In this document: in pieces, positions 2,065 to 25,903 of the stretch
Position numbering within the stretch: position 1 is the first letter of the stretch
Layout of the letters: each line of letters begins with the position of its first letter
From: an uncultured Acidimicrobiales bacterium
Lineage (GTDB): Bacteria; Actinomycetota; Acidimicrobiia; Acidimicrobiales; Aldehydirespiratoraceae
DNA length: 64,000 nt
NCBI GenBank assembly: GCA_951812975.1
Contig: CATOTC010000003.1
Location: 248,001 to 312,000, forward strand
Direction: 5' to 3'
Program-made: the position numbers and the translations under genes
The notes under the pieces: generated by a model
The model's database searches: none
The model's input: only the letters and a program-made list of their open reading frames with translations
What the model was told of the DNA's origin: nothing

Positions 2065-3534
2065 CTACTCTTCCGATTCTGCGGCTGAGTTGCCTCCCGG
2101 CGGCTCGAAGTCCCGAGCCAATTCGATCAGCAGTCGCACTCCGTATCCGGTGCCTCCCTTGGTGATCTCCGCATCGTCTGAGTCGCTCCAGGACGGTCCG
2201 GCGATGTCGAGGTGGGCCCACGGAATTCCCTCCGCCACGAACTCCTTGAGGATCAGTCCGGCCGTCAGCGCACCCCCCTGGGGCTTGCCGATGTTCTTCA
2301 TGTCTGCGACCGACGACTCGATCTGTTTGGTGTAGTCGCCGGGCAGCGGCAGATGCCATACCCGTTCGCCCGAGACCGCGGACGCGTTCTTAACGGCGTC
2401 TATCCACTCGTCGTTGTTGCCCATTAGTCCGGCGATCTTCGGGCCGAGCGCGACCACGCAGGCACCGGTGAGCGTCGCCAAGTCGACGATCGCGTCGGGC
2501 TCCGCTTCGCTGGCCAGCGAGAGGGCGTCGGCGAGGATCAATCGACCCTCTGCGTCCGTGTTGAGCACTTCGATGGTCTTGCCGTTGCGGATCTTCAGAA
2601 CGTCGCCCGGGCGGGTGGCATCGCCGCCGAGCATGTTGTCGGTCATCGGAACGAAGGCCCGGACCTGCGCGGCGGGCGCGATCTCTGCCATGGCCGACAT
2701 CGCGCCGATCACGGCTGCACCCCCGCCCATGTCGTACTTCATGGTCATCATGCCCTGGCCGGTCTTGATCGACAGACCGCCTGCGTCAAACACGATCCCC
2801 TTGCCGACCAGCGCCAGAGTGCCGTGTTTGGGCCCGGGCGGATCGTAGGTCAGTTCAACCAGCCGGGGTGGGAGCGTTGATCCGCGGTTGACGCCGAGGA
2901 GGCCGCCGAGCCCGCCCTCGGCTATTTCGGTCTCGTCCCAGACCTTGACCGTCAATCCGCGGTCGCGCCCCACCGCGGCGGCACGGTCCGCGAACTCCGG
3001 TGCGGTCAGGATTCCTCCCGGCTCGTTGACGAGGTCCCGGGCCAGCATCTGCGCACCGGCCACAGCCCTGCCCAGATCGAGCGCTCCCTGGTTCGTTGCA
3101 CCCACTCCGCCGGCGACGTCGACTCGGTTCAACTTCACCGGTTCGCCTTCGGACTTGTACGTCAAGAACTTGTAGCTGCCGAGCGAGATCCCCTCGACCA
3201 GCGCTCGGCGGCAGATCGCGCCGTCGAGGTCAACGTCCGGCAGAGCAGCTCCGACCCAGGTGTGGTTGCCCAACCTCCGCCCGATCGCAGCTCCGGCACG
3301 GCGGAGGCGGTCGGCGTCCACCTCGGCACGGGGGCCGACCCCCACCAGAGCACCGACCCGGCCGTTGACGGGCCATGTGTAGGTCTGGCCGACCTGGCCG
3401 CTGAAGTCGGCGTTGTCGAGGTCTCTGCTGTCGACCTGTTCGAGCCCGCTGGTAACGGCTTCTGAGGTGACGATCCATACGTGCGCCCTTGCCCTCTGAG
3501 GCAGGACGCGGACTGCGCGGTAGCTGATTGACAT
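2065..3534 (-). CDS. pepA: Leucyl aminopeptidase (M17 family)
   Basis: A 489-residue cytosolic metallo-exopeptidase that removes N-terminal residues from peptides. The M17 signature NTDAEGRLILADAL is present, as is the upstream metal-binding segment KGIVFDAGGLSIK, which holds the conserved Lys/Asp pair; length is normal for the family. The ATG at 3534 (protein MSISYRAV...) is preferred over an in-frame TTG 39 bp upstream because the extra residues look non-coding. It sits 12 bp upstream of the PKS gene on the same strand. That is an unusual partner for a housekeeping peptidase and probably just shared transcription. Confidence 0.93.
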   Translation of the reverse strand: MSISYRAVRVLPQRARAHVWIVTSEAVTSGLEQVDSRDLDNADFSGQVGQTYTWPVNGRVGALVGVGPRAEVDADRLRRAGAAIGRRLGNHTWVGAALPDVDLDGAICRRALVEGISLGSYKFLTYKSEGEPVKLNRVDVAGGVGATNQGALDLGRAVAGAQMLARDLVNEPGGILTAPEFADRAAAVGRDRGLTVKVWDETEIAEGGLGGLLGVNRGSTLPPRLVELTYDPPGPKHGTLALVGKGIVFDAGGLSIKTGQGMMTMKYDMGGGAAVIGAMSAMAEIAPAAQVRAFVPMTDNMLGGDATRPGDVLKIRNGKTIEVLNTDAEGRLILADALSLASEAEPDAIVDLATLTGACVVALGPKIAGLMGNNDEWIDAVKNASAVSGERVWHLPLPGDYTKQIESSVADMKNIGKPQGGALTAGLILKEFVAEGIPWAHLDIAGPSWSDSDDAEITKGGTGYGVRLLIELARDFEPPGGNSAAESEE

Positions 3535-3624
3535 GCGAGCAGAATACGCCGATCGCGCGCCGTTCTGGGGCAAATGCTGATCTTGTGCGCCCGGGGCCGC
3601 CTCTGTCGGCTCGCTGCGGGTTCT

Positions 3625-4830
3625 TCAGCCCCGTTGCATGCGTCCCTGCGGCAGCACCTCGATGTCGAACTCGGGCACTTCACCGGCGAACATCGGGAAC
3701 TTGGGTACAGCCTGTTGACGGAACCTTGTTGAACGGTGCACCGGATCGCGGTCGTATTCGGGAATCACCTTGGATCCGAACAGTTCGATGCACTCGAGGG
3801 CCTGCTCATGGTTCATTCCGTCCTTGGGGAATGAGAACGCCACCTGGTCGGCACCGACCCGCTGATATTCCTCCAGCTGTTCGCAGACGTCCTCGGGCGT
3901 CCCGCAGAGCATGCCTCCGTGCTTGATCACCGTGTCGAGGACTTCTTCGTTGGGCACGCCCATGTCGGGGGGAGACGGCCAGGTTGTGCCGTTGCCCATC
4001 TTCGGGAAGGTGTCGTGGTACAGGTGCAGCAGGGTGATCAGGTAGCCGTTGCCCCGGGCGGTGGCTATTCGACGGGCCTCTTCGCGGTCGTTGAGGCAGA
4101 CCACCTCGTTGGTGAGCATCAGGTTGTTGTTTTGGAACTGGCCGATGACCTCTTTGGGCTCGGCTGCGGCGTCCTTGTAGGTGTCGACGAGCGGACCCAT
4201 CTCGTGGATCGGCTTGAAGTTGAACGCCACCGCGCCGATTCCCATCTCACCGGCTGTTACGAAAGAGCTGGGGTTCCCGCAGGCCAGCCAGATCGGCGGA
4301 TGACCCTGCAGGTACGGCTTGGGCAGGACGTTGTGGGGTGTGGGCACGTTGAAGAACTCGCCTTCGAAGACGTAGTCCTTCTGCTCCCACATCCTTGGGA
4401 TCTCACGCACGACCTCGTGCCACATCGCCTTGGTCTCGCTGGTCAAGGTGCCGTTGAAGCTGGCGACCTCGTGGCTGCCGGCGCCCCGGCCGGTCCCGAA
4501 CTCGAAGCGGCCCTCGGTCACGTGGTCGAGCATCGCCGCTCTCTCCGCGATCCGGACCGGATGTTCCTTGGTGGTGGGGAGGCTGGTGATGCCGCTGGCG
4601 AGATGTATCCGCTCGGTTTGGGCCGCGATGGCTCCCATCACGACCTCGGGTGCGGACATGTGGCTGTATTCGGTCAGGCAGTGGTGCTCGCCGAGCCAGG
4701 CGTACTTGAAATTGTGCTTGTCGGCGAGGACCCCGTACTCGATCTGCTCCATGAGCATTCGATGCTCAAGTTCGGGGTCATGCGCCGCCGGTCCCGGTAT
4801 GTACCCGTTGAGAAACAGCGCGAATTCCAT
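3625..4830 (-). CDS. LLM-class flavin-dependent oxidoreductase (luciferase-like monooxygenase)
   Basis: A 401-residue TIM-barrel protein of the bacterial luciferase family, which uses FMN or, often in actinobacteria, F420. It shows the N-terminal barrel strand (MEFALFLNGYIPG), the conserved GEHH motif near residue 48, LASGITSLPTTKEHPVRIAE and the GRFEFGTGRG segment typical of these monooxygenases. The C-terminal part has the usual GTPEDVCEQLEEYQRVGADQ region that closes the barrel. The substrate is unknown. It reads in the same direction as pepA and the PKS but ends 90 bp before the pepA start, so an operon is possible but not shown. Confidence 0.88.
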   Translation of the reverse strand: MEFALFLNGYIPGPAAHDPELEHRMLMEQIEYGVLADKHNFKYAWLGEHHCLTEYSHMSAPEVVMGAIAAQTERIHLASGITSLPTTKEHPVRIAERAAMLDHVTEGRFEFGTGRGAGSHEVASFNGTLTSETKAMWHEVVREIPRMWEQKDYVFEGEFFNVPTPHNVLPKPYLQGHPPIWLACGNPSSFVTAGEMGIGAVAFNFKPIHEMGPLVDTYKDAAAEPKEVIGQFQNNNLMLTNEVVCLNDREEARRIATARGNGYLITLLHLYHDTFPKMGNGTTWPSPPDMGVPNEEVLDTVIKHGGMLCGTPEDVCEQLEEYQRVGADQVAFSFPKDGMNHEQALECIELFGSKVIPEYDRDPVHRSTRFRQQAVPKFPMFAGEVPEFDIEVLPQGRMQRG

Positions 4831-4897
4831 GGGCGCGGACTCTAGGCCGTGTGTTGTCGCGGGACGTAACCCGGCCGCGTTCAGCGCTCAGAAGCAT

Positions 4898-5071
4898 GCG
4901 CTCCACCCTTGTTCGCTTCGCTCACGGGCCGCTCGGGCCACGGCCTCGTTCGGTCGCTGCCGTGCGCGGGATCAATCCGCTTGGCGCTCCACCCTTGTTC
5001 GCTTCGCTCACGGGCCGCTCGGGCCACGGCCTCGTTCGGTCGCTACCGTGCGCGGGATCAATCCGCTTGGC
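4898..5071. repeat. Two-copy 86-bp tandem direct repeat overlapping the 3' end of copA
   Basis: The sequence starting gctccacccttgttcgc at 4900 recurs at 4986, and the copies match to the end (atccgcttggc) apart from one C/A change near 5044. The second copy covers the copA stop codon (5058-5060), so the repeat extends into coding sequence. The upstream edge of copy 1 abuts the 5' region of the LLM gene. It may be a duplicated gene end or an intergenic repeat family. There is no spacer, so it is not a CRISPR. Confidence 0.92.
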
Positions 5072-7229
5072 CTCGGAACCGTCGCAGGCGCATGCTGTTG
5101 CTGACGACGAACAGCGAGGACAGTCCCATTGCTGCGGCTGCGATCATGGGGTTGAGCACGCCTGAGGCCGCCAGCGGAATGGCTGCTGCGTTGTAGGCGA
5201 AAGCCCAGAACAGGTTGCCCTTGATCGTGCTGAGGGTTCTGCGAGACAACGCCACGGCATCGGCGACGGCGACGAGGTCCCCTCGCAACACGGTGAGGTC
5301 GGAGGCTTCCATGGCGATGTCGGTTCCACTGCCCATTGCGATGCCGACATCGGCCTGGGCCAGTGCGGGAGCGTCGTTGATCCCGTCGCCGACCATGGCG
5401 ACCCGATGTCCTTCGCTCTGAAGTCGAGCGATCTCAGCGGCCTTGGCGTCGGGAAACATGGACGCTCGCACCTGTTCGATTCCAACTGCGGTGGCAACGC
5501 TTCGTGCGGTCCGTTCGTTGTCGCCGGTCAGCAGCACGATGTCGAGGTCCTGTCGCCGAAGCGCGGCGACCGCTTCTGCCGAAGACGGCTTGATCTGGTC
5601 CGCGACTACCAGCGCCGCTTCAGCGACGGGTCCGCGTCCCACCGGTCCGCGTCCGACGAAGACCACGGTTCGGCCCTGCGCTTCGGCCTCGCCTGCAAGC
5701 TGTTCGACCTCGGGACCGATCTCGCTGAACATGTCCCGACGACCGACGACGACGGCAGTTCCGTCGACCGAGCCGACCACACCGAATCCGGGGCGGTTCT
5801 CGAAATCGGTCACGGAGCGGTCGGGTTCGACAGCGTCGCCTATTGATCGAGCAGTGACTGATTGAGCGGCGATTGCTTGGGCGATGGGGTGTTCGGAGCG
5901 TGATTCGAGGGCCGCGGCGAGCGCCAGCAGTTCGTTGCCGTCGCCGTCGGGGGCGATCACTTCGACCAGTTCCATGCGGCCGTGGGTGACCGTGCCGGTC
6001 TTGTCGAGCACGACGGTGTCGAGCCGTCGGCTGTCCTCGAGCACCTCCGCTCCCTTGATGATGATGCCCAGCTGTGCTCCCCGACCGGTTCCGACGAGGA
6101 TGGCCAACGGGGTGGCGAGTCCAAGAGCACAGGGGCAGGCGATGATCAGAACCGCGACCGCGGCGGTGAATGCGTCGGTTCCGGAGTCTGCCAGGACCAG
6201 CCAACCGAGCAGCGTCGACAACGCAATGGCGATGGCGACGGGCACAAAAACCCCCGCCACGCGGTCGGCGAGTCGCTGGATCTGGGCACGGCTGCCCTGC
6301 GCCTCGTCGACGAGGCGGATGATCTGAGCCAACGCTGTGTCGGCACCCACCCGCGTGGCCTCGATCAGCAGGGAGCCGTTGGCGTTGACCGTGGCACCGA
6401 TGACTTCGTCGCCGGCTCGGACCTCGACCGGTACCGGCTCGCCGGTGACCATGGACACATCGACGGCAGAGTGCCCTTCGAGCACCACGCCGTCGGTGGC
6501 GATCTTCTCACCGGGCCGCACCCGGAATCGCATACCCGCGGCCAGGTCGTCGATGGCGATCTCGGTGCCGTCTTCGAGCATGGCGGTGCGGGCGCCAAGG
6601 TCCGCGAGGGATCGGATCGCCTCTCCGGACCGGCGGGTGGCACGTACCTCGAGCCATTTTCCGAGCAGGATCAGGGTGATTATCACCGCGCTCGTCTCGA
6701 AGTAGACCTCTGCGTCGACGTCGGCCAGCAGCACCACCGCCGACCAGGTCCAGGCCGCCAGAGTCCCGACCGAGACCAGCGTGTCCATGGTGACAAGGCG
6801 ATGTCGCAGGTTGCCGACGGCGACACGGTGGAATCGCCAGCCCGACCAGTAGACGACCGGTGTGGCCAGCACCAACGCGGCCCACTCCCATCCGTCGAAG
6901 CGCAGCGGACGGATCATCGAGACTGCTGCGACGACGACCGTGAGCACCGCGGCGAGTCGAAACCGCAGCCACAGATCGGTTTGACGTGCTGCTTCGGCCG
7001 CGTCCCGGTCCATCTCGGCCGGAGCGGAGTAACCGAGCGACTCGATGGCAGTGCGGAAGGCCTCGACGCCGACCGCGTCGCTGTGGAACACCGTGGCCTT
7101 GCTGGTGGTGAAGTTCACCTGGGCTGAAGCCACGCCTTCGAGACGGTTCAGGCTCTGCTCGATCGAGGCCGCGCACGCCGAACAGGTCATGCCATCAACC
7201 GCAAGTTCCGAGCGAACTTCGGTTTCCAT
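5058..7229 (-). CDS. copA: Copper-translocating P1B-type ATPase
   Basis: A 723-residue inner-membrane pump that exports monovalent copper (or silver) using ATP. An N-terminal heavy-metal-associated domain carries [10 protein letters not shown] (residues 13-22). Transmembrane helices follow, with the ion-binding CPC in [13 protein letters not shown] (~365), the phosphorylated Asp in DKTGT (~410), SEHPIA in the nucleotide domain, TGDN and [10 protein letters not shown] (~615). All catalytic motifs are intact. The start is 24 bp from the divergent selO start, so the two promoters must overlap. The stop lies inside an 86-bp repeat. No CopZ or CsoR gene is adjacent. Confidence 0.95.
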
Positions 7230-18436: not shown

Positions 18437-19474
18437 CTACAAGTTCTGGGGCGCTGGGCCGGTGCTCTCGCGAACGACAAGTTCGGGGGTGATGTAGACA
18501 TCGTCGGTGTACCGGGGATCCTCTATCGCCGCAAGCAACTGGAGGATCAAGTGGCGTCCTAGGACCTGGGAATGATGCCGGAGAGTGGTAAGCGGGGGTG
18601 TCGTGTGGCTGGCCGCGTGAACGTCATCGAAACCGACGACGCTCAGGTCCCCAGGCACATCAATATTGCGCGATGCCGCAGCGCGGAGCGCTCCGATGGC
18701 AAGCAAATCATTGAAAGTCACGAGCGCGGACGGCGGATCCGGGCCGTCGAGCAATCGGGCGGTTGCCTCTGCAGCCTCTTCCTCTCTGAAGCCGCACACC
18801 ACGATGTGGCGGGGTTGAGCCTCCAGCCCCTGGTCAGCAAGCGCCCGATGAAACGATGCTTTGCGTTGTGTTGCGATGGCATGCTCGAGCGGTTCGGCGA
18901 GACAGCCTATTCGGCGGTGGCCCAGCGCAACGAGATGATCTACGGCCGGATGAAGACAGCCGATCGGTTCCTGCACGGCCGGATGCCCACCGGTGTCGCC
19001 GACGCGCCCGAAAGTCACAAAAGGCACTGCATGTTCCAGGAGGAACTCAACACGGGGATCATTGTGGACGGCTCGCAACACGACGAATCCATCTACCCGT
19101 TTGGTCGCAAGAGCACGTTCGTAAGACGCAGTCGGATCGTCGTCGGCAAGCGGTGTGGTGAGTTGCACTTCGCAGCCGTTGTGAGCTGCTTCGTCTACCA
19201 GCGCGGTCAGCAACTCGCCGAAGAACGGATCCGAGAAGCGCTGATTCTTGGTTACCAGCACCAGTCCGAGCGAATTCGTTCGCGCTTCGGGCATCTTCAG
19301 GCGTCGAGCCTCAAGATTCGGTGCGTATCCGATCCTCGTCGCCGCCTCAACAACACGCTCGCGAGTACGTGCGGACACGTCATCGTGTCCGTTGAGTGCC
19401 CTGGACGTCTGGGTCACGGAGACGCCCGTCTCTCGGGCTACATCGCGAAGTGTAGGGCGTCGCTTAGGTCTCAA
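18437..19474 (-). CDS. LacI-family transcriptional repressor
   Basis: A 345-residue regulator. The N-terminal helix-turn-helix and hinge helix are clear (TLRDVARETGVSVTQTSRAL, VVEAATRIGYAPNLEARRLK), followed by a periplasmic-binding-protein-like sugar-sensing domain. The TTG start at 19474 has AAGGAG six bases upstream. It is divergent from the ABC transporter operon starting at 19641, and a perfect LacI-type palindrome lies at 19573-19588, so it should repress that operon (and perhaps itself) until the transported sugar or a derivative binds. Confidence 0.93.
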   Translation of the reverse strand: MRPKRRPTLRDVARETGVSVTQTSRALNGHDDVSARTRERVVEAATRIGYAPNLEARRLKMPEARTNSLGLVLVTKNQRFSDPFFGELLTALVDEAAHNGCEVQLTTPLADDDPTASYERALATKRVDGFVVLRAVHNDPRVEFLLEHAVPFVTFGRVGDTGGHPAVQEPIGCLHPAVDHLVALGHRRIGCLAEPLEHAIATQRKASFHRALADQGLEAQPRHIVVCGFREEEAAEATARLLDGPDPPSALVTFNDLLAIGALRAAASRNIDVPGDLSVVGFDDVHAASHTTPPLTTLRHHSQVLGRHLILQLLAAIEDPRYTDDVYITPELVVRESTGPAPQNL

Positions 19475-19572: not shown

Positions 19573-19588
19573 TCCGAAACGTTTCGGA
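19573..19588. promoter_or_regulatory. LacI-family operator palindrome
   Basis: TCCGAAACGTTTCGGA is a perfect 16-bp palindrome with the central CG and AAACGTTT core typical of LacI/CcpA-type operators. It sits between the divergent LacI gene and the ABC operon, about 50 bp upstream of the binding-protein start. Confidence 0.8.
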
Positions 19589-19640: not shown

Positions 19641-21122
<1,482 letters not shown>

Positions 21123-21168: not shown

Positions 21169-22572
21169 ATGACAACACCCGATACCGCCACGTCCGCCTC
21201 AAAGGCTAGGACGTGGCGGTATCGCGTCGTCCCCTATCTGTTGATCGCGCCGGCGATCGTCTACCTCGCGATGTTCTTCGCGTATCCGATGTATGAGGGT
21301 CTCGTTCTGGCCGTCTACGACGAGGACGCTCTGCTACCGACCCGCGACGAACCGAACCTCGACGGAAGCGAGGTCTCGAAAATCCCCCAGGGCACGGCGC
21401 TGGCAATAGTGGATCGGAGCAGTCAAGAAGTTGTCGGCGACGAGAACCCGGACGCGCTCACGGACCCGTGGTATCAGGTGACCGCCGACGATCCCACCGG
21501 ATCGCCCATCACCGGGTGGGTGTCTGAGGCTCGGATCCGGGTCCGCGACGAAGATGCCGCAGGCGCGCCTGTGAGCGGAACAGTCCGCCCGAGGCTCGCC
21601 GCCACTTCGGATCCTCTAACCGATGTGTATGAGGCACCCAACGACCGCAGCGAAGTGATCGGCAAGCTCGAACAACGCGCACCTGTGGAGATCACCGACG
21701 TCGCGCTGCTCGAGGTCTGGTTCCAGGTACGGCCGGCAGACGACCCTTCTGCGGCGGCGGGTTGGGCGCCGTCGCGGTTCCTGCAGGTGTTCGAAGACGG
21801 CGAGAACGGGCGAGTACACCGAGGAACCGACGGCGAGTTCACCACGGCGTTCATCCGACGCATGATCGATGACCGTTTCTTTGGTCCCGCCGTTCGGACC
21901 ACCTTGTTGCTGATGGTGCTGATCATTCCGGCCCAGCTCGTTCTGGCGATGGTCATGGCTCTGGTTATCCATGCCAGGACCCGCTTGAGCACTGGCTTCC
22001 TGTACGCCTTCTCACTGCCCATCGGCATGAGCGATCTCGCCGCGGGAATCCTCTTCTTCTCGATCTTCACCGGCAACGGACTGCTCAACAGCATCCTCGA
22101 CGCTCTGGGCATCATCGACGGGCCATATGCGTTCTTGACCGCGGATACGGTCCGCTGGATCATCTTCGCCATCGTGCTCGCCGAGTTGTGGCGAGCGACG
22201 TCGATCGTCATGGTGATCCTGGTTGCGGGCCTCCAGGCCATCCCTGACGAGACTCTGGAGGCGGCCGAACTGTTCGGAGCCAGCTATTTCCAGCGGGTCC
22301 GCCACATCATGCTGCCGCTGTTGCGTCCGAGCATCCAGGTGGCACTGATCCTGCGCACGATCCTTGCCTTCCAGGTGTTTGCGGTTGTGATCGCCCTGGG
22401 CGGGGGCGATGTCGTCACCGTCCTCGCCAACGAGTCCTACCGCCAGTACTTCGGCCTGCGCAACAACAATGTCGCGTCGGCCTATGCCGTGTTCATCCTC
22501 CTGTTGTCCATGGCAAGCGCATTCTTCTACCTGCGAGCGGTTCGATCCGAGCCGGAGGCCCGTCCGACATGA
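21169..22572 (+). CDS. ABC sugar permease (MalF-like) with large SH3-like extracytoplasmic insert
   Basis: A 467-residue permease, long for the family (~300). The first helix (VVPYLLIAPAIVYLAMFFAY) is followed by an extracytoplasmic insert at about residues 55-205. The insert contains two similar units, each with a Glu/Pro-rich start, a hydrophobic strand, WYQV or WFQV, and GWVSEARIR or GWAPSRFLQ, which is the pattern of bacterial SH3 (SH3b) domains. The remaining helices and the EAA loop (EAAELFGASYFQRVRHIMLP) are normal. The insert occupies the same place as the P2 loop of E. coli MalF that touches the binding protein. The start overlaps nothing and follows the binding-protein stop by 46 bp. 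Confidence 0.9.
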   Translation: MTTPDTATSASKARTWRYRVVPYLLIAPAIVYLAMFFAYPMYEGLVLAVYDEDALLPTRDEPNLDGSEVSKIPQGTALAIVDRSSQEVVGDENPDALTDPWYQVTADDPTGSPITGWVSEARIRVRDEDAAGAPVSGTVRPRLAATSDPLTDVYEAPNDRSEVIGKLEQRAPVEITDVALLEVWFQVRPADDPSAAAGWAPSRFLQVFEDGENGRVHRGTDGEFTTAFIRRMIDDRFFGPAVRTTLLLMVLIIPAQLVLAMVMALVIHARTRLSTGFLYAFSLPIGMSDLAAGILFFSIFTGNGLLNSILDALGIIDGPYAFLTADTVRWIIFAIVLAELWRATSIVMVILVAGLQAIPDETLEAAELFGASYFQRVRHIMLPLLRPSIQVALILRTILAFQVFAVVIALGGGDVVTVLANESYRQYFGLRNNNVASAYAVFILLLSMASAFFYLRAVRSEPEARPT

Positions 22573-23498
22573 GTCTCAATACCGCTCCCGATGACTCGGC
22601 CGGCACCGGTGCGGGTGCAGGGCTTCCAACAGTGCTGCCTCCGCTCGATTCTCCCGAGGTGGAGAAGATGCACCGGCGTATGCGGCGGCGCCGCGGCCGC
22701 GGCCGGCTGACCGCGTACATCACGGGCGCCATCTTGACACTGTGGATCGCGGTGCCGATCTTCTTCGTGTTCTCGATGGCGTTCACAACACAGGAGACGG
22801 TCCGCTCCTACCCCAAGAACTTCCTTCCGTTCATCCCCTTCTCAACCGATACGATGCGCTTCTTCCTGGAGTCGGAAGGTGTCCTGCAGAGCCTGTGGAA
22901 CAGCATGATCGTGGCTGGGATCACGCTGTTCCTGTCAACCTTGATCTCGATTCCGGCCGGTTACGCGATCGCCCGTTATCTGTTCAGGGGCCGCGACCTG
23001 TTCCGGCTGGCCGTGCTTGCCGTCCGTGCCTTCCCGATCGTGGTGCTGTCGATCCCCCTCGCCGTGCTGTACCTGCGGATCGGTGTTTTTGACAGCCTCT
23101 ACAGCCTGGCATTGATGCATACTGCGCTCGCTCTGCCGACTTCAATACTGGTCGTGTCCAGTGTGTTCGCCAGCGTCCCGTACGAACTTGAGGAGGCGGG
23201 CAAAGTCTTCGGGGCGAGCCCGTTCCAGTCGTTCCGCTACATCGTGGTGCCACTGGTGCTGCCGGGGATCGCCGCGTCGGGGCTCTTCTCGTTCGTGCTG
23301 TCCTGGAATGAAGTCTTCGCCGCGGCCATCCTCACGATCAACAACCGAACGCTGCCTGCGCTGGTGTTGAGCTCGCTGGCCAACTCGCCTGATGCGTTCC
23401 AGTTCGCCGGCGGGTTCTTCCTGATGGTCCCGTCGATCGTGTTCATGTTCTTCATCCGCCGCTACCTGTTCAACATGTGGGGGCAGGTCACCAAGTGA
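22569..23498 (+). CDS. ABC sugar permease (MalG-like)
   Basis: A 309-residue inner-membrane permease with about six helices and the EAA loop EEAGKVFGASPFQSFRYIVVPL that docks onto the ATPase. It has a short Arg-rich cytoplasmic segment before the first helix (RRMRRRRGRGRL). Its ATG overlaps the MalF-like stop (ATGA), so translation is coupled and the two should form the heterodimeric channel. Confidence 0.92.
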   Translation: MSLNTAPDDSAGTGAGAGLPTVLPPLDSPEVEKMHRRMRRRRGRGRLTAYITGAILTLWIAVPIFFVFSMAFTTQETVRSYPKNFLPFIPFSTDTMRFFLESEGVLQSLWNSMIVAGITLFLSTLISIPAGYAIARYLFRGRDLFRLAVLAVRAFPIVVLSIPLAVLYLRIGVFDSLYSLALMHTALALPTSILVVSSVFASVPYELEEAGKVFGASPFQSFRYIVVPLVLPGIAASGLFSFVLSWNEVFAAAILTINNRTLPALVLSSLANSPDAFQFAGGFFLMVPSIVFMFFIRRYLFNMWGQVTK

Positions 23499-23510: not shown

Positions 23511-24605
23511 ATGGCTGAGATTCGAATCGAGCATGTCACCAAAACGTTCGGTGACAACGTCGCGATTGACGACATCAACCTCACTATCGAAGACCGCGAG
23601 TTTCTGGTTCTGCTCGGACCGAGCGGTTGCGGCAAGACAACTCTGTTGCGGGCAATCGCGGGTCTCGGAATGGCCGACTCCGGCCGGATATCCATCGGCG
23701 GGCAAGACGTCACCTATCTGCCACCGGGTCAGCGCCAGATCTCGATGGTTTTTCAGAGCTATGCGATCTTTCCCCACATGACGGTGCACCAGAACATCGG
23801 TTTCGGCCTCTTGATGAACAAGGTCGACAAAGCCGAGAGCGACCGCCGAGTAAGGAGTGCTGCGGAACTCCTGCACATCGAGAACCTGCTCGACCGAAGA
23901 CCAAGTGCAATGAGCGGCGGACAACGCCAGCGAGTCGCAGTGGCACGCGCACTGGCGATGGAAGCCAAAGTGCTCCTGATGGACGAGCCGTTGAGCAACC
24001 TCGACGCACTGCTCCGACTGGAGATGAGAGCTGAACTCAAGCGGCTGCTGGCCGATGTCGAAGCCACCACCGTATACGTCACCCACGACCAGATCGAAGC
24101 CCTGAGTATGGGCGACCGGGTTGCGGTCATGCTCGACGGCAAGATACAGCAGTGCGACGCACCCAACACCGTCTACGAGTCGCCCTCCAACCAATTCGTC
24201 GGCAGCTTCATCGGCAACCCGCCCATGAACTTCATGGAGGGGACGATTCAACGTGACCGCGACACCGTGACTGTCGCTGTCGGCGAACACGAATTCTCGC
24301 CCCCCGAAGCGCTGCAACCACTGATCCGGGACCTCAGCAGCGATCGGATCACGCTGGGTATTCGGGCCGAGAACATGGAGACACTCGCCGCACCGTCGTC
24401 TGACACCGTCCCCGTAACGATTGAGGTCGTCGAGCCTCTGGGCGCGCAGAACCTGCTGACGGCAAGGATCGGAGGGCACCGGCTCAAGGTCTCGACCCAT
24501 CCGAGCCTGGATGTGGCCGCGAAACAACAGGTTTATATACGCTTGCCCGCTGATCAGATCCGATGGATAGACCCTGCCACCGAGAGCGTGCTCTACAAGC
24601 GATGA
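23511..24605 (+). CDS. ABC sugar transporter ATP-binding protein (MalK/UgpC type)
   Basis: A 364-residue ATPase. Walker A is GPSGCGKTT, Q-loop VFQSYAIFPHM, signature MSGGQRQR, Walker [13 protein letters not shown] and switch His YVTHDQIEALS. A C-terminal regulatory OB-type (TOBE) domain of about 120 residues follows. It energises the two permeases; in the family one such subunit often serves several transporters. An AGGA box precedes the ATG, and the TGA overlaps the glycosidase start. Confidence 0.94.
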   Translation: MAEIRIEHVTKTFGDNVAIDDINLTIEDREFLVLLGPSGCGKTTLLRAIAGLGMADSGRISIGGQDVTYLPPGQRQISMVFQSYAIFPHMTVHQNIGFGLLMNKVDKAESDRRVRSAAELLHIENLLDRRPSAMSGGQRQRVAVARALAMEAKVLLMDEPLSNLDALLRLEMRAELKRLLADVEATTVYVTHDQIEALSMGDRVAVMLDGKIQQCDAPNTVYESPSNQFVGSFIGNPPMNFMEGTIQRDRDTVTVAVGEHEFSPPEALQPLIRDLSSDRITLGIRAENMETLAAPSSDTVPVTIEVVEPLGAQNLLTARIGGHRLKVSTHPSLDVAAKQQVYIRLPADQIRWIDPATESVLYKR

Positions 24606-25903
24606 CCCCCAAGCCGAACCTAGACGGCCCAGACCGTACAACTGAGGCCGTGTCTGTACTTCGCAACAACGATCGAGGCGGCTACACGGTGCCGTCTCAA
24701 CACCTCTATCCGTTCCAATGGAACTGGGATTCGTTGTTCGCGGCGCTCGGCTGGGCCAAATTCGACGTGGCCCGAGCCTGGACCGAGATAGAGACGCTGT
24801 TTGAAGCTCAATGGCCCTCGGGAATGGTCCCCCACATCGTGTTCTGGTCTGAGTCCGAGAGCTACTTCCCGGGGCCCGACGTCTGGCAGATCAACGGTTC
24901 CACCCCTCCAACTTCAGGGATCTCGCAGCCACCGGTGGCGGCCACGATAGTAAGGAGACTGGCCGAGACGCACGGACTGCCACCGCGGTCGCTGTACGAG
25001 CGCATAGAACGCTGGCACCAGTGGTGGCACCGTGCCCGCGATCCCGAAGGCCGGGGAGTGATCGCTATCACTCATCCCTGGGAGTCGGGGCGCGACAATC
25101 TCCCGGACTGGGATCTTCCCCTTTCGCGCGTCACCCCAACGCTCATAGACGGCTACGAACGACGTGATCTCGACCACGTCAACCCGGACATGCGTCCCCA
25201 CAACGACGACTACGAACGCTACCTCGCCCTAGTCGCCTACGGTGCATCCAAGGGGTGGGACGATGCGGCCATAGCGCAAGAGAGCCCATTCTGGGTCGCC
25301 GACCCGTGCCTGACAGCCGTGCTGCTACGAGCCGAGCGCGACCTCGTCTGGCTCGGTGAGGCCATAGGCGCTGACACCATCGAGACTCACCGGAGGGTGG
25401 ATCGACTCTCCGAAGGGTTTGAGCAGTTCTGGAATCCGGCCGTCGGCGCCTACTGTTCGCTGGATCTGCGGACCGGGGTTCACGCTGACGCTGCAACCTC
25501 AGCGTCCTTCCTTGCCCCGTACGGCGGCATCAACGAACACAGCGACCGGTTGTTGGACGAACTCGAAGCATGGTCGAACGCATGCACGTACCTGGTACCG
25601 AGTTTCGATCCCCGCCACCCCAGTTTCGAACCGCTGCGCTACTGGCGCGGACCCGTCTGGTGCATGGTCAACTACATGATCGCCACCGGTTTGGCTGAGT
25701 TCGGCGCGCCCGATTGGGCCGAGCGTCTCCGCTCCGACACGTCGAAGCTGATCACGCTCAGCGGCATGCCCGAGAGCTTCGATCCTCTGACTGGTGGCCC
25801 CGTCGGTGGAGAGCACTTCACCTGGACCGCCGCACTCTGGCTCGCCTGGGCCAGAGGTTCAAACAACGGTCAGGGCCCCAAAGCCGAGCCGACCGCACGT
25901 TAG
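24602..25903 (+). CDS. MGH1-like (GH63-related) glycoside hydrolase
   Basis: A 433-residue (alpha/alpha)6-barrel enzyme with no signal peptide, so cytosolic. Hallmarks of the GH63 mannosyl/glucosylglycerate hydrolase group are QWNWDSLFAALG, SGMVPHIVF, the SGRDN motif (~162-166) carrying the likely general acid, YWRGPVWCMVNYMI, and GGEHFTWTAALWL near the end with the second acidic residue. Its ATG overlaps the transporter ATPase stop (ATGA). The context says the ABC system imports a glycoside, possibly glucosylglycerate or mannosylglycerate, and this enzyme splits it. The substrate is inferred, not shown. Confidence 0.8.
   Translation: MTPKPNLDGPDRTTEAVSVLRNNDRGGYTVPSQHLYPFQWNWDSLFAALGWAKFDVARAWTEIETLFEAQWPSGMVPHIVFWSESESYFPGPDVWQINGSTPPTSGISQPPVAATIVRRLAETHGLPPRSLYERIERWHQWWHRARDPEGRGVIAITHPWESGRDNLPDWDLPLSRVTPTLIDGYERRDLDHVNPDMRPHNDDYERYLALVAYGASKGWDDAAIAQESPFWVADPCLTAVLLRAERDLVWLGEAIGADTIETHRRVDRLSEGFEQFWNPAVGAYCSLDLRTGVHADAATSASFLAPYGGINEHSDRLLDELEAWSNACTYLVPSFDPRHPSFEPLRYWRGPVWCMVNYMIATGLAEFGAPDWAERLRSDTSKLITLSGMPESFDPLTGGPVGGEHFTWTAALWLAWARGSNNGQGPKAEPTAR

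Follow-up and report, generated by a model that had tools for sequence, protein, structure and literature searches.

A tandem SH3 module lies in the first extracytoplasmic loop of a MalF-like permease encoded in the window analysed here (the whole stretch of 64,000 nucleotides) and, according to the permease tree, it was gained once. Taken together, the analyses suggest that the protein is a MalF-type permease of an importer for mannosylglycerate (or glucosylglycerate), and that the module most likely works like the P2 loop of MalF, a reading to which an about even chance is assigned.

The permease and its SH3 insert

The gene of permease 1 (21169..22572, forward strand) is an open ORF of 467 amino acids. 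Pfam analysis placed the BPD_transp_1 domain at residues 257-454 (E 2e-13), with a score of 50.7 bits against a curated cut-off of 26.4, while the EAA-X3-G loop was found as EAAELFG at residues 364-370, and the Pfam matches of the neighbouring genes showed that the operon supplies a binding protein, a second permease and an ATPase. These features bear out the MalF-like permease of the preliminary description and make permease 1 a channel-forming subunit, on the MalF/UgpA side, of an ABC importer of type I.

The position of the insert was determined from the junctions with insertless orthologs and from an alignment of 15 insert-bearing sequences. Around the junction the insertless orthologs read approximately FFAWPMxxALxLAFQD-xxGxFTLExxRRM, while permease 1 reads FFAYPMYEGLVLAVYDED, the insert and then DGEFTTAFIRRM, and this clean boundary delimits residues 52-219 (21322..21825, forward strand). 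The presence of an insert was thus correctly described before, and its length, given as about 150 residues, is nearer 168. The insert comes after TM1, and the next long helix begins at about residue 238 in the full-length AlphaFold2 prediction, which was read for secondary structure only, as its mean pLDDT was 56 and the core unusable; the only model used was that of the insert. Similarity to E. coli MalF in BLAST starts at query residue 223, which corresponds to MalF residue 263, directly past the MalF_P2 domain (residues 100-260 of E. coli MalF according to Pfam), and therefore the insert occupies the P2 slot, between helix 1 and the rest of the permease, as had been proposed. MalF_P2 itself (PF14785) gave no match in permease 1 at E values up to 1, using the same Pfam library that detects it in E. 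coli MalF at 4e-61. The location between TM1 and TM2, the basic N-terminus of permease 1 and the necessarily cytoplasmic EAA loop at 364-370 argue, by the topology of the MetI/MalF fold, for an insert that faces outside.

Searched as a whole, the permease showed two stretches of SH3_3 (PF08239) at 46.4 bits (E 4e-12), where the cut-off is 27, and the isolated insert matched the same family with E 2.5e-13. In the whole-genome search, domain 1 (residues 59-121 by Pfam; 21343..21531, forward strand) scored 27.8 bits and domain 2 (residues 152-206 by Pfam; 21622..21786, forward strand), which carries the invariant LEVWFxV and GWAPS, scored 24.7 bits; these were the only two places in the genome with SH3_3 at E 0.01 or better, both inside the insert. 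The family was also found in the insert of all 15 aligned orthologs. Comparison of the aligned halves by hhalign showed that they are mutually homologous (E 8e-10, 60 columns), in agreement with the two similar halves of bacterial SH3 pattern noted earlier.

The AlphaFold2 model of the insert, built with 15 sequences, was all beta with a mean pLDDT of 89.6. Foldseek comparison of this model with the PDB gave nothing with E under 1e-3, and the sequence profile of the insert found no match in the PDB. After realignment of the Foldseek candidates, the top matches were bacterial SH3b domains, with modest Z scores of 6-7.4, under 8, over 57-67 residues: CBDP35, a wall-binding domain of a Listeria phage endolysin (Z 7.4, 66 residues, 2.4 A), YkfC-like NlpC/P60 proteins (Z 7.0-6.5), YrvJ and PlyPSA. 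Because Z scores under 8 are modest, the SH3 assignment leans mainly on the Pfam match. The realigned rows span positions 2 to 168 of the insert model yet align no more than about 60 residues, and the next entries in the list are interdigitated double Tudor domains, a pattern that hints at a strand swap between the two SH3 barrels.

Sequence change is faster in the insert (mean pairwise distance 0.45) than in the core (0.21), and to judge from the coding sequence the insert is kept under purifying selection; dN/dS between the window and locus L037 was 0.16 for the insert and 0.07 for the core. The invariant residues of the insert include W101, G116-W117, R122, R124, R126, R140, L181-F185, V187 and G198-S202. 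Some of them belong to the SH3_3 consensus, whereas the stripe of arginines and the LEVWF and APS segments exceed it and could form a contact surface.

The operon, its probable substrate and the binding protein

Upstream and divergent from the operon lies a gene for a LacI-family regulator (18437..19474, reverse strand; Pfam LacI and Peripla_BP_3, E 5e-33). The gap between regulator and operon contains the perfect palindrome CCGAAACGTTTCGG (19574..19587, no strand assigned), which is the sole copy within the window and a probable LacI-type operator; its exact GAAACGTTTC core was present near the gene of the solute-binding protein at 12 of 15 insert-bearing loci, as compared to one of 19 insertless loci. 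A sigma-70 promoter scan of the operon gave nothing above chance. Two other repeats of the window were recorded, a GC-rich unit of 86 bp in two head-to-tail copies that are 98% alike (4898-5071) and a 15-bp unit, CACTGTCCGAACCAG, in six copies (387-478).

Permease 1 is followed on the forward strand by a MalG-like permease 2 (22569..23498; Pfam BPD_transp_1, E 2e-15), a MalK/UgpC-like ATPase with an OB/TOBE domain (23511..24605; Pfam ABC_tran, E 1e-36; NCBIfam UgpC model, E 2e-117) and a predicted GH63 glycosylglycerate hydrolase, for mannosylglycerate or glucosylglycerate, assigned by phmmer (24602..25903). The closest relative of this enzyme was TTHA0978 of T. thermophilus (2z07/4wva; phmmer E 5e-110), and the mycobacterial glucosylglycerate hydrolase (GgH) was matched with E 3e-60. 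The motifs WESGxDN and PESFDPLTG align, and the catalytic Asp and Glu are conserved; Thermus thermophilus TTHA0978 (4wva) has been named mannosylglycerate hydrolase and its catalytic residues have been described (PMC6608630). The order LacI regulator, binding protein, permease, permease, ATPase and hydrolase occurs also in Meiothermus, Deinococcus, Chelatococcus and Loktanella, with an additional glycerate kinase gene in the Loktanella operon and a DUF4147 gene in that of Deinococcus.

This order and a GH63 or GH38 partner are conserved in most of the operons. In two insert-bearing operons a GH38 mannosidase-family enzyme takes the place of GH63 (L041, 11471-14272; L048, 10510-13224), and the two non-homologous enzymes perhaps share one osmolyte as substrate; beside the ATPase of L047 and L049 neither kind of hydrolase was found. 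The mannosylglycerate hydrolase (MgH)-type GH63 enzyme and the conservation of the operon point to mannosylglycerate as the likeliest substrate of the importer, followed by glucosylglycerate, which makes more specific the sugar permease of the preliminary description. The importer would mark marine and sponge-associated Acidimicrobiia as probable scavengers of glycosylglycerate osmolytes.

The binding protein (19641..21122, forward strand), whose ATG is preceded by AGGAGG, is a lipoprotein of 493 amino acids identified by Pfam (SBP_bac_1, E 4e-18) and by its orthologs, with a lipobox cysteine at residue 31 and an acidic tether extending to about residue 98. The tether is coded by a tandem repeat of DSDMDED units detected by TRF (19818..19898, forward strand), which encodes the Asp/Glu/Met-rich DSDMDEEDMDED. 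The same repeat is expanded in the binding protein of L037, as DDSDSDM units, so tether length varies with repeat copy number. The median tether was 59 residues in 15 insert-bearing systems and 27 in 13 insertless lipoprotein orthologs, a difference that represents one evolutionary event and hence holds no independent replicates; the tethers of seven paralogous binding proteins in this genome were roughly 8-50 residues by eye.

Replacement of the binding protein together with the gain of the insert was considered and rejected, the proteins being plain orthologs with 44-49% identity to those of the insertless operons. A different arrangement was observed at L048 (JAHDGV010000001.1, a MAG labelled Chloroflexi), where a single ORF of 1291 amino acids (2908-6783), upstream of the permease with the insert, encodes the binding protein. 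Behind one lipobox it has three binding-protein domains in tandem, which share 79-84% identity among themselves and 69-70% with the binding protein of the window. A solute-binding lipoprotein with three such domains is unusual and would suit docking at several sites.

Distribution and origin of the insert

Close orthologs of the permease, 59-94% identical, were found in 16 of 397 Acidimicrobiales genomes, including this one, and all of them contain the full-length insert. A scan of the contigs of 84,980 species, using patterns from this permease family that more distant insert-bearing genes could escape, revealed 14 insert-bearing loci: 13 from Actinomycetota, all Acidimicrobiia and including Poriferisocius and Ilumatobacter, and one from the Chloroflexi-labelled MAG. 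The carriers are mostly uncultured marine bacteria. Insertless orthologs, with a core identity of 46-57%, were detected in other Actinomycetota, in Chloroflexota (16 of 251 genomes) and on plasmids from Deinococcota and from Alphaproteobacteria. The insert is missing from the orthologous operons of other Actinomycetota, of Deinococcota and Alphaproteobacteria and of most Chloroflexota. The possibility raised at the outset, that it is simply the usual P2 loop of all relatives, does not hold, since orthologous operons outside one clade have no such loop.

In a core tree of 51 rows, calculated with the insert columns excluded, all 24 insert-bearing permeases, from Acidimicrobiales and the one Chloroflexi-labelled MAG, formed one clade with 100/100 support. 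This MAG, which may be misbinned, was the first branch of the clade, and the nearest insertless row also came from the Chloroflexota set. For this tree a single gain suffices, which may have taken place either among the Acidimicrobiales or in a related lineage of Chloroflexota. Across 298 Acidimicrobiales genomes the profile of the insert matched these permeases and nothing else, and it gave one match in 251 Chloroflexota genomes, thus indicating that the module belongs to this importer rather than to wall proteins at large; no domain donor or insert-like sequence beyond the permease orthologs was found in the same two sets.

Possible roles of the insert and comparison with known systems

From the position of the insert, its co-conservation and the longer tether in the insert clade, we infer a role in docking, and its position, its restriction to one importer and its co-inheritance make P2-like docking or capping the best guess. 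The first extracytoplasmic loop of the permease would have acquired the tandem SH3 module once, and the module would form a folded beta platform above the translocation pore, on which the lipid-tethered binding protein is docked, capped or held in position, its longer tether being as if made to reach over a taller platform. In the maltose system, MalF-P2 (91-271) touches MalE directly at 240-249 (PMC3150292). Against docking, the insert is faster-evolving than the core and the sister operons manage without it, and mirror-tree comparison of insert and binding protein showed no specific signal (partial r -0.05 and 0.17 after removing ATPase or core distance). A simple attraction between an acidic tether and a basic insert was rejected, since both are acidic (net charge -17 for the insert and a median of -25 for the tether), although Arg 122, 124 and 126 are invariant. 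The wider proposal of an independently evolved counterpart of MalF-P2, in which the recruited tandem SH3, of a type that binds walls, either captures the long-tethered binding protein or fixes the transporter to the wall, is held with slightly less than even confidence.

Anchoring to the wall, or sensing of it, by binding of the tandem SH3 to peptidoglycan or another wall polymer, so that the transporter is fixed under the cell wall, is the main rival, though rather unlikely. Wall anchoring and a hold on the binding protein had both been offered in the preliminary description. SH3b domains are best known for wall binding, the host group is Actinomycetota, an L,D-transpeptidase of a relative carries SH3_3, and the top structural realignments (CBDP35, YkfC-like, YrvJ and PlyPSA) are all SH3b wall-binding or wall-hydrolase domains; however, their Z scores are modest and a common fold indicates no ligand. 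The insertless orthologs of other Actinomycetota function without the module, which in the Acidimicrobiales and Chloroflexota sets is present on this importer only, and many wall binders differ from the net charge of -17 of the insert. A structural role, in which the insert spaces or stabilises the permease without a separate ligand, for example by pore shielding or contact with permease 2, appears slightly less probable still: the low dN/dS of the insert and the invariance of the inter-domain segment with Arg122/124/126/140 are as a folded platform requires, but sister permeases occur without the insert and a tandem SH3 would be an unusual choice. The orthologs refute an annotation artefact, be it two frames or genes joined through an error of sequencing or a likeness to SH3 that arose by chance: 24 distinct sequences, taken from many assemblies, show the same architecture, always in one frame, and SH3_3 was significant in all 15 orthologs scanned.

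Accessory loops of ABC permeases have been little studied outside MalF, and no paper describing SH3 domains in such a loop was found in the open-access papers searched, although one may exist. The orthologous importers that have the module and those that lack it, in operons otherwise alike, form a natural matched pair, which makes the action of the module on binding-protein docking as opposed to wall attachment testable. The insertless members next to a GH63-type hydrolase (Meiothermus pMtWR-220, Deinococcus, Chelatococcus and Loktanella) share an identical gene order, 47-52% identity in the permease core and 44-49% in the binding protein; in contrast, their permeases have about 283-307 amino acids and no SH3 module, and the tether of their binding proteins is short or absent. 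The sequence-closest permease of known structure is the mycobacterial SugA of LpqY-SugABC (8ja7, 7cad; E about 1e-20), which differs in having 307 amino acids, in matching only outside the insert and in serving trehalose.

Each half of the insert resembles the bacterial SH3b domains (SH3_3; CBDP35, YkfC-like, YrvJ) in sequence family and probable fold, whereas the SH3b domains found are parts of phage lysins or of wall enzymes that are secreted, and not of a permease loop. With MalF of the E. coli MalFGK2 transporter, permease 1 shares a MalF-like permease domain, the EAA loop and an extra folded domain of similar size (about 160-180 residues in P2) in the first extracytoplasmic loop of the six-helix core. 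The two differ in that the insert of permease 1 is a tandem SH3_3 with no PF14785 match, the MalF_N_TM helices are missing, and the binding-protein partner is a tethered lipoprotein.
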